From a bacterium (GTDB taxonomy: Bacteria; Electryoneota; JAOADG01), in NCBI GenBank assembly GCA_026417415.1, contig JAOADG010000008.1, positions 62,001 to 126,000 of the forward strand: a DNA stretch of 64,000 bases. The letters are read 5' to 3'. The notes beneath the pieces were generated by a model. That model worked only from the letters and a program-made list of their open reading frames with translations. It ran no database searches and was not told the origin of the DNA. The stretch's first letter is position 1. Each line of letters begins with the position of its first letter. Below are positions 6,126-9,379 of this stretch, in pieces. The translations under genes and the position numbers were made by a program.

Positions 6126-6240
6126 AGATTTTCCTTTCTTTTGTTGTTGGGTTGAAAATATACCATAATGCATATAGCAATATATACGTAAGAAAATTAG
6201 AAAAAGTTTGCTAAAAATAATTTTTAAGAAAACATTGCCA

Positions 6241-6263
6241 TTATGACATACCATATGTCATAA
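6241..6263. promoter_or_regulatory. Perfect palindrome, candidate activator-binding site
   Basis: Two 10-base arms (TTATGACATA and TATGTCATAA) are separated by CCA. The centre at 6252 lies about 142 bases upstream of the predicted sigma-54 transcription start and 127 bases upstream of the barrel gene start. That distance is typical for enhancer sites of sigma-54 activators. There is no T-tract on either side, so it is not a terminator. The cognate protein is unknown. Confidence 0.5.
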
Positions 6264-6362
6264 AGACAAACGGTAAAGGACAAAATGGCAATCAGAAAAG
6301 GTGATTGCTAATTAGGTAAACTTGATATGAATAAATTCTTTCGTATATTGTTTAAGTTTTGG

Positions 6363-6386
6363 CAAACTGGCACGCAAATTGCTAAT
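6363..6386 (+). promoter_or_regulatory. Sigma-54 (RpoN) -24/-12 promoter of the chaperone cluster
   Basis: The core CTGGCACGCAAATTGCT at 6367-6383 has GG at 6369-6370 and GC at 6381-6382, exactly 10 bases apart. It matches the published sigma-54 consensus YTGGCACG-N4-TTGCW at every defined position, and the flanking bases 6363-6366 and 6386 agree too. The predicted start of transcription is about 6394, giving an approximately 129-base leader before hsp20. Confidence 0.85.
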
Positions 6387-6392
6387 GTCTTT

Positions 6393-6522
6393 GGTGGAAC
6401 GCTTCAGGTAGGTAAGCCGAACCACCCAAGCATTCCAAAAGGGTCTTCACCTTCTACATGCGAAGGTCCTTGTTGAAGAAAACATTCGGCAAAGTGGACT
6501 TAACAGAAAGGAGGGTAAAACT
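6393..6522 (+). promoter_or_regulatory. Structured 5' leader of the hsp20 mRNA
   Basis: Two potential stem-loops are visible. The first, 6393-6426, pairs GGTGG with CCACC and inside it GCTT (6401-6404) with AAGC (6413-6416), so it would form the very 5' end of the transcript. The second pairs TCTTCA (6444-6449) with TGAAGA (6474-6479) and, inside, CCTTC (6450-6454) with GAAGG (6462-6466). A strong AAAGGAGG ribosome site follows at about 6508-6515. An mRNA-stabilising or temperature-sensing role is inference. Confidence 0.4.
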
Positions 6523-6963
6523 ATGACATTAGTACGTTGGTTTCCAAGACGTGATCTTTTAACCATTCAAAATGAGATGAATCGCTTGTTCGAAAATTTC
6601 TTTGGCAGTTCAAAATTTGATGAAGCCGAACCCATGTGGTCGCCAAGAATGGATGTAATTGAAAGCAAGGACGATTATATCGTCAAAGCGGACATCCCTG
6701 GTGTTCGTAAAGAGGATGTGAAAATTACCTTAAACGAAAATGTTCTTACCGTTCAAGGTGAACGTGCCGAAGAAGTCAAAAAGGACAGCGATACCTATCA
6801 TCTCATTGAACGTCGGGTTGGCAAGTTCAGCCGTAGTTTAACGCTACCGACCAATGTGGTGGTGGAAAAAATCAAAGCCAAATTCAATGATGGCGTTTTA
6901 ACCATCACATTGCCCAAAGCTGAAGAAGCTAAGCCACGGGAGATTTCGATTGAAAGCAACTAA
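6523..6963 (+). CDS. Small heat-shock protein, Hsp20/alpha-crystallin family
   Basis: An ATP-independent holdase of 146 residues. The N-terminal arm (RRDLLTIQNEMNRLFENFFG) is followed by an alpha-crystallin domain from about residue 38, with DDYIVKADIPGVRKEDVKI and GVLTITLPKAEE. The C-terminal ISI is the I-x-I motif that drives oligomer assembly. ATG 6523 has the AGGAGG ribosome site 7-8 bases upstream. It is the first gene behind the sigma-54 promoter and is followed by a weak hairpin at 6983-7006, which may lower read-through to fmdB, groES and groEL. Confidence 0.96.
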   Translation: MTLVRWFPRRDLLTIQNEMNRLFENFFGSSKFDEAEPMWSPRMDVIESKDDYIVKADIPGVRKEDVKITLNENVLTVQGERAEEVKKDSDTYHLIERRVGKFSRSLTLPTNVVVEKIKAKFNDGVLTITLPKAEEAKPREISIESN

Positions 6964-6982
6964 TTAACCAACGAAACGTTGT

Positions 6983-7006
6983 GGGGTGCCTTTTCTAAGG
7001 TACCCC
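6983..7006 (+). terminator. Weak terminator or attenuator between hsp20 and fmdB
   Basis: A 10-base-pair stem (GGGGTGCCTT with AAGGTACCCC, one G-U pair) has a 4-base loop and is followed by only three T residues. It probably terminates partially or protects the 3' end of an hsp20 mRNA. Confidence 0.5.
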
Positions 7007-7044
7007 TTTGGACTGTTTAAAAAACGATCTGGAGAAAAATAGGT

Positions 7045-7338
7045 ATGCCAACCTACGAATATCAGTGTGAAGTATCGGCAGAGCATCGCTATGAAAAAAT
7101 GCAAAAATTTAGCGATCCAATGGATACCCATTGTCCATTTTGCGGACAACCGGTTAGACGCATCATTTCTGGTGGTGTTGGATTGATTTTTAGCGGAAAT
7201 GGGTTTTATCAAACCGATTATAAAAATAACCATTCCAAAAATGGAAAATCTGCAACGAAAAAAGAAGAAAAATCAGAAACCAAAACTGAAAACAATTTGA
7301 ATAATGGGAATTGTGGCAGCAATTGTAGTTGCCACTAA
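7045..7338 (+). CDS. FmdB-family zinc-ribbon protein
   Basis: A 97-residue protein with the FmdB start MPTYEYQC and the later SGNGFYQTDY characteristic of this regulatory/zinc-ribbon family. The second knuckle Cys30-x2-Cys33 is present. In the first knuckle Cys8 is followed by Ser11 where Cys is expected. The tail is Lys/Asn-rich and ends with CGSNCSCH (Cys90, 94, 96, His97), which might supply replacement ligands. It lies between hsp20 and groES; FmdB genes next to groES do occur in other bacteria, but the function is not established. A GGAGA site precedes the ATG. Confidence 0.88.
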   Translation: MPTYEYQCEVSAEHRYEKMQKFSDPMDTHCPFCGQPVRRIISGGVGLIFSGNGFYQTDYKNNHSKNGKSATKKEEKSETKTENNLNNGNCGSNCSCH

Positions 7339-7376: not shown

Positions 7377-7679
7377 ATGAAGATCCCGTTAAAACCGATG
7401 GATGAACGAATTCTCGTTAAACCCATGGTTGAAGAAGAGAAGAAAATAGGAAGCATCATCATTCCCGACACTGCAAAAGAAAAACCGACGATTGCAGAAG
7501 TTATTGCACTCGGTGCCGACATTGAACGTGAGAACGAAAAGAAGCCCAAATTAAGTGAAGTTCTCAAAGTGGGAGATAAAGTTCTCCATTCCAAGTATGG
7601 TGGTACCGAAATCGAATGGGAAGGTGAAAAATACCTTATTCTGTCAAGGTCGGACATTTTAGCGATTATCACTAAGTAA
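7377..7679 (+). CDS. groES: Co-chaperonin GroES (Hsp10)
   Basis: The 100-residue GroES caps the GroEL folding chamber. It contains LKPMDERILVKPM at the start, the mobile loop region EEEKKIGSIIIPDTAKEKP, and GDKVLHSKYGGTEIEWEGEK. Length and order match the usual 95-100 residues. ATG follows GAAGGAG. It lies 22 bases before groEL, so the two are co-transcribed. No CIRCE or HrcA site lies upstream. Confidence 0.98.
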   Translation: MKIPLKPMDERILVKPMVEEEKKIGSIIIPDTAKEKPTIAEVIALGADIERENEKKPKLSEVLKVGDKVLHSKYGGTEIEWEGEKYLILSRSDILAIITK

Positions 7680-9356: not shown

Positions 9357-9379
9357 AAAGGGTGCCATTGGCACCCTTT
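9357..9379 (+). terminator. Terminator after groEL
   Basis: A perfect 10-base-pair hairpin (AAAGGGTGCC with GGCACCCTTT, loop ATT) is followed by a T-rich stretch. It lies between groEL and the convergent beta-helix gene. On the minus strand it is followed by TTTT, so it could act in both directions. Confidence 0.85.

Follow-up and report, generated by a model that had tools for sequence, protein, structure and literature searches.

The analysis of a 64,000-nucleotide stretch of bacterial DNA (the window) reveals an hsp20-fmdB-groES-groEL cluster behind a perfect sigma-54 promoter, and this operon probably owes its activation to sigma-54 together with an enhancer-binding protein (EBP), with a re-specified HrcA acting as its repressor. 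The promoter and its conservation, the enhancers, the rpoN, EBP and hrcA genes, and the overlap of the promoter with a CIRCE-type repeat are all evident in the DNA. The features of the region are the following.

6236-6248, plus strand: enhancer (UAS) 1, TGCCATTATGACA, 8/8 to TGNCA-N3-TGNCA
6256-6268, plus strand: enhancer (UAS) 2, TGTCATAAAGACA, 7/8
6278-6290, plus strand: enhancer (UAS) 3, GGACAAAATGGCA, 7/8, overlapping operator 1
6285-6311, plus strand: putative CIRCE-type operator 1, ATGGCAATC-N9-GATTGCTAA, 14/18 to consensus CIRCE, overlapping enhancer 3
6322-6349, plus strand: housekeeping-like promoter TTGATA-16-TATATT, 10/12, directly 5' of operator 2 and not conserved in the sister genome G001
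6359-6385, plus strand: putative CIRCE-type operator 2, TTGGCAAAC-TGGCACGCA-AATTGCTAA, 13/18, covering -24/-12
6368-6383, plus strand: sigma-54 promoter TGGCACGCAAATTGCT, 12/12 defined positions, expected start near 6394
6523-6963, plus strand: hsp20 (Hsp20/alpha-crystallin), 146 aa, Pfam HSP20
6982-7009 (approximate), plus strand: strong hairpin GGGGTGCCTTTTCTAAGGTACCCC after hsp20 with a short T tail, fold z -3.52 for 6956-7050
7045-7338, plus strand: fmdB-type zinc-ribbon protein, 97 aa, Pfam
7377-7679, plus strand: groES (Cpn10), 100 aa, Pfam, the sole groES match in the genome
7702-9333, plus strand: groEL (Cpn60), 543 aa, Pfam
9357-9379, plus strand: good terminator-like hairpin 3' of groEL, the operon end

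The promoter carries GG at 6369-6370 and GC at 6381-6382 with ten bases between them (within CTGGCACGCAAATTGCT, 6367-6383), and the surrounding consensus agrees at all 12 defined positions. A zero-mismatch search for TGGCACGN4TTGCW on either strand of the 64 kb returned TGGCACGCAAATTGCT as its one match, where simple arithmetic gives a chance expectation of about 0.015 perfect matches per 64-kb window. A preliminary description of the window had placed a consensus-perfect GG-N10-GC site 140 bases before hsp20, which is confirmed, the distance to the hsp20 ATG being 139 nt; it had also named the cluster as apparently the only chaperonin operon in the window, consistent with the single match of a genome-wide groES search. 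No convincing promoter was seen on the plus strand of the interval between hsp20 and groES. The hairpin between hsp20 and fmdB is possibly an attenuator or a processing site, which may reduce read-through to groESL. An RNA thermometer in the 5' leader was considered and rejected: the leader folds no better than shuffled sequences (z -1.27), so that none is claimed, and a search of RNA families, thermometers included, gave no meaningful match.

To assess conservation, hsp20 was searched in 61 genomes, and for 29 relatives (22 of the same phylum and 7 outside it) the sequence preceding the best locus was read, a site being accepted at 10/12 or better with GG and GC required. On this basis, a sigma-54 site precedes hsp20 in 19 of the 22 same-phylum relatives and in 1 of the 7 outsiders, against 1/22 and 0/7 on the complementary strand and 0/22 and 0/7 with a reversed pattern. 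Same-phylum relatives below this threshold number three, with scores of 8, 9, and 9, and two of them (L026 and L028) retain exact enhancers. In the sister genome G001, the defined positions of the promoter, GG and GC included, are kept base for base amid diverged flanks. Across 80 named hsp20 loci from many phyla, 18 score at least 10 within 300 nt, compared with 1/80 on the other strand; of these 18, L127 apparently duplicates a relative already counted, G004:C2, whose contig has an identical length, and the -12 element of L128 is poor. Those with a site include records of Coatesbacteria, Poribacteria, KSB1, Calditrichota, Gemmatimonadota, and Verrucomicrobia, and most Ignavibacteria loci have none.

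These promoters share an upstream palindrome, TGNCA-N3-TGNCA, which was counted in 39 regions picked for carrying a sigma-54-like site, namely that of the window, 22 from the 29 relatives, and 16 from the set of 80 named loci (L024, L127, L128, and loci without a site were excluded). In these selected regions, matches at 7/8 or better number 58 versus 2.3 in shuffles, and exact matches 21 versus 0.06. When spacers of 0-15 were compared, the spacer of 3 stood out with 21; the spacer of 15 gave 12, and this corresponds to about the distance between half-sites of adjacent enhancer copies, which often lie 20-23 bp apart, or two helical turns. Upstream activator sites are accordingly conserved in the relatives. 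When enhancer and promoter were searched as one joint pattern with 72-102 bases between them, 13 places in 12 of the 61 genomes matched, versus 2 for the reversed pattern; by position, 10 of these belong to hsp20, one to groES (G010), one to lon (G027), and one to a response-regulator gene (G041), and in two f2 genomes that were read, a Clp_N-type gene, taken to be clpB, stands after hsp20. Taken together, the targets of the joint pattern look like a protein-stress regulon. The promoter of the window itself is missing from the 13 because the suitably spaced copy of its enhancer starts with GGACA and not TGCCA. As far as the literature was searched, an enhancer motif common to hsp20 promoters across phyla appears to be new, and its conservation would help to trace the stress sensor, and the regulon under it, in uncultured phyla.

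The machinery for such a promoter is present, as the genome of the window (G000) encodes rpoN and five full EBPs. Nine strong sigma-54 sites were found in it versus one for the reversed pattern, and the eight outside the hsp20 promoter lack the TGNCA-N3-TGNCA enhancer. The best candidate for the activator of the hsp20 promoter, named here with more doubt than assurance, is EBP-A, a receiver-less protein made up of an AAA+ domain, its lid, and a Fis-type helix-turn-helix alone (Pfam). Matches to it at E 1e-74 or better occur in 33 of 39 same-phylum genomes and also in G039 and G046; of the seven outsiders checked, G039 alone carries the hsp20 promoter, and G046 has EBP-A without that promoter. 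A profile across wider phyla found EBP-A over nearly its whole length in Ignavibacteria-type records without the promoter and did not find it in Poribacteria or Coatesbacteria records that carry the promoter; the profile therefore fits inside the phylum and fails across phyla. A second protein, EBP-B (GAF type, C13), has counterparts in G010, G021, and G025 at 55-59% identity and was rejected as the activator, since the 7 EBP matches of G001, one of which is partial, included no counterpart. At L202:4187-5861 (G000:C3), a receiver-less EBP is followed by lptE (Pfam, lptE in G000); an lptE-like gene after EBP-A seems to be kept in most of the 30 loci read, and this pairing may tie envelope assembly to sigma-54.

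The CIRCE-type repeats escaped a strict search, in which the consensus TTAGCACTC-N9-GAGTGCTAA gave 0 matches at up to 3 mismatches in the window and in genome G000, and the preliminary description had stated that no CIRCE is present. This holds for the strict search alone, since diverged repeats occupy 6285-6311 and 6359-6385; they emerged only by way of G001, where the search at up to 3 mismatches returned exactly one site, on its hsp20 sigma-54 promoter. This operator (TTAGCAGTC-TGGCACGGC-GATTGCTAA) scores 16/18 and holds the -24 element in its spacer and the -12 element in its right arm. By CIRCE score alone (13 and 14 of 18), the operators of the window are near chance for 64 kb; the register of operator 2 scores 4-10/18 in 22 other hsp20 promoters. 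A family operator pattern, which was drawn from these very sites and is partly circular, matches at 17/18 at 74 bp 5' of operator 2 in the window and at 15/18 at 73 bp 5' of the G001 operator, and its best scores in 20 other hsp20 promoters are 10-14. Genome-wide at up to 2 mismatches, the family pattern and its reversed control give 3 versus 3 matches in G000 and 1 versus 5 in G001, these operator comparisons covering the two genomes of the window's family; both 1-mismatch sites of G000 and the single site of G001 lie in the hsp20 promoter. Putative HrcA-type operators over the -24/-12 elements and an enhancer of an hsp20-groESL operon appear to be new in the literature searched.

A gene for HrcA is encoded in the genome of the window (G000:C9:2871-3509, E 1.8e-50), as it is in 38 of 41 genomes. 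The preliminary description had by implication set HrcA control aside, which does not agree with this gene or with a promoter lying inside a diverged CIRCE-type repeat. For the alignment, 19 of 31 loci passed a motif filter (12 were dropped by it) and were aligned with the protein of G000 itself. Across the 18 aligned non-family HrcAs, the DNA-binding segment reads PVGSR ... S[PA]AT[IV]RN ... HTSAGR, and in G000 and G001 the same segment reads PVSS, ASS[SA]TIRN, and YASSGR or HTSGGR. In parallel, the half-site has moved from TTAGCACTC towards TTRGCAAWC, and the two genomes suggest that HrcA and its half-site changed together. If true, an HrcA operator over -24/-12 with matching changes in HrcA would represent a repressor and a site that were co-changed to fit another kind of promoter.

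Chaperonin genes in the phylum generally follow another rule. A CIRCE of their own at 16/18 or better lies within 260 nt of groES in 25 of 30 loci (29 relatives and the window), and a sigma-54 site lies within 260 nt of groES in 1 of 30 (G010); sigma-54 control is thus not general for groESL. Both family genomes, G000 and G001, lack a groES CIRCE within 260 nt, and in both of them, groES and groEL follow hsp20 and fmdB in the same orientation. It is because groESL sits behind hsp20-fmdB that sigma-54 would reach it in this family. The preliminary proposal that a stress activator using sigma-54 runs the main chaperones of the lineage is hence upheld in part: rpoN and the EBPs, for which a genome search had been suggested, and the conservation of the promoter and enhancers favor it, whereas HrcA control may also be at work and the extension to groESL is limited to certain genomes. 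In G001, a transposase-like frame and another gene are inserted in the hsp20-fmdB-groESL cluster; the inserted frame between hsp20 and fmdB (L201:8042-8551, G001:C7) has GGGCGTATTGCAATACGCCC-like palindrome copies nearby and, with no Pfam match, presumably resembles a REP-associated transposase. In G010, groES-groEL has its own sigma-54 site and an exact enhancer with no CIRCE (G010:C99:3134-3258, L217), and HrcA was not found in this 77% complete genome; this may be a separate, independent instance of a chaperonin under sigma-54.

Sigma-54 promoters are silent until an ATP-driven activator opens them, and their use on core chaperones would mean that an activator senses protein stress and that loss of a repressor is not the whole signal. 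From the arrangement of sites, we infer protein stress as the signal, an EBP acting at the enhancers, HrcA binding, and co-transcription of groESL. In this model, sigma-54 RNA polymerase would bind TGGCACG-N4-TTGCT (6368-6383) and start near 6394, and an EBP on the tandem palindromes at 6236-6290 would open the promoter under protein stress. Properly folded HrcA would bind the two diverged CIRCE-type operators, which are separated by 74 bp, or about seven turns of the helix, with one covering the polymerase site and the other overlapping the nearest enhancer; given these positions, HrcA would keep this promoter closed until stress inactivated the repressor. Transcription would run through hsp20 and past the hairpin into fmdB-groES-groEL, although the hairpin could stop most transcripts before groESL. 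A wider reading, which we consider plausible at a little short of an even chance, is that in several phyla hsp20, sometimes with clpB, lon, or groESL, is run by sigma-54 and an activator that reads TGNCA-N3-TGNCA, and that in the family of the window this circuit absorbed groESL and fused with a re-specified HrcA on two phased operators (at the polymerase site and the enhancer), giving a combined activator-repressor gate for the main chaperones. A chaperone promoter that is both activated and repressed would make protein-stress control testable in these bacteria.

The evidence against this combined control lies in the weak operators of the window, a family pattern that does not exceed its control, the misfit of EBP-A across phyla, and the hairpin after hsp20. 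The first two of these (scores of 13 and 14 of 18, and a pattern not above control genome-wide) could equally be expected if sigma-54 and an EBP alone controlled the operon and the CIRCE-like repeats were chance or a fading remnant, with HrcA working elsewhere or idle, especially as the -12 element and enhancer 3 fix parts of the repeats. We consider this unlikely in view of the 16/18 repeat at the homologous place in G001, the paired spacing of 73-74 bp that recurs in both family genomes, the retention of hrcA with a changed DNA-binding segment, and a groES that has no other CIRCE in this family. Less probable still is class I control, in which the housekeeping promoter at 6322-6349 and CIRCE would drive the operon and the sigma-54 site would be secondary or vestigial. 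The match of TTGATA-16-TATATT at 10/12 adjoins operator 2 in the layout seen at most of the relatives' groES CIRCEs, but its equivalent in G001 reaches 8/12 at best. By contrast, both G001 and the phylum at large keep the sigma-54 positions and the enhancers. The operon may also have two promoters, as Chlamydia hrcA does.

An ATG frame of 49 aa (6327-6476, ending CEGPC) spans the promoter, and the promoter-like string could in principle be a coincidence inside this coding frame. This is extremely improbable, being contradicted by the phylum-wide conservation of promoter and enhancers; the frame is probably not a gene, since it matches nothing in Pfam, lacks a convincing counterpart in G001, and begins 5' of the expected start site.

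The combined control by sigma-54 and HrcA has partial precedents. E. coli ibpB, Bradyrhizobium groESL3 (NifA), and Myxococcus lonD (HsfA) are reportedly single chaperone or protease genes under sigma-54. These cases use other activators, and we know of no HrcA operator on their sigma-54 promoters. The window resembles class I HrcA/CIRCE systems, the rule at groES in the phylum (25/30), in its inverted repeat with a 9-bp spacer and the presence of hrcA, and it differs from them in having diverged operators on a sigma-54 promoter before hsp20 and an altered HrcA. No description of an HrcA operator on sigma-54 -24/-12 elements was found in the literature searched, and Chlamydia hrcA is the nearest case. 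In passages of two reports on Chlamydia trachomatis, the hrcA-grpE-dnaK operon has sigma-66 and sigma-54 promoters and CIRCE in one promoter region, the sigma-54 site being described inside the -10/-35 sequence (PMC7482065, PMC8762339). The likeness is that of a heat-shock operon with sigma-54, a housekeeping promoter, and CIRCE in one region; unlike that operon, the present one is hsp20-groESL, with putative operators over -24/-12 and an enhancer, another enhancer motif, and an altered HrcA. For other phyla, passages of a scoring-matrix survey predict sigma-54 promoters ahead of chaperone genes in Planctomycetota and Bacteroidota, assign groES, groEL, and a small heat-shock protein family to the sigma-54 regulon, and call B. 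thetaiotaomicron groES sigma-54-dependent, and these passages contain no common enhancer or HrcA overlap (PMC12316311). Parts of further reports give no heat-shock chaperone target in the Desulfovibrio sigma-54 regulome (PMC4641369), describe Rhodopirellula rpoN as not regulated by heat (PMC2754498), and list a Geobacter Hsp20 gene as changed in an IHF mutant, with nothing more in the part concerned (PMC7962754).

Several other sigma-54-like sites in the genome of the window merit mention. Strong sites at L032 (G000:C1:122611) and L034 (G000:C31:24985) have GTGCAAATTTTGCAT-like palindromes upstream and, by a simple scan for start codons and ribosome sites, no protein gene just downstream; both are possible sigma-54-driven small RNAs. 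A motif scan of the collected loci for EBP genes beside hsp20, with a motif later found to be too narrow, matched two loci of this genome alone, L035 and L038. At L035 (G000:C33:60421), directly after an EBP gene, a strong sigma-54 site lies 78 nt 5' of a 91-aa protein that has a signal-like N-terminus and matches nothing in Pfam. At L038 (G000:C38:433321), a sigma-54-like site directly 3' of a PAS-type EBP gene precedes a frame with a cytochrome-like cluster downstream.
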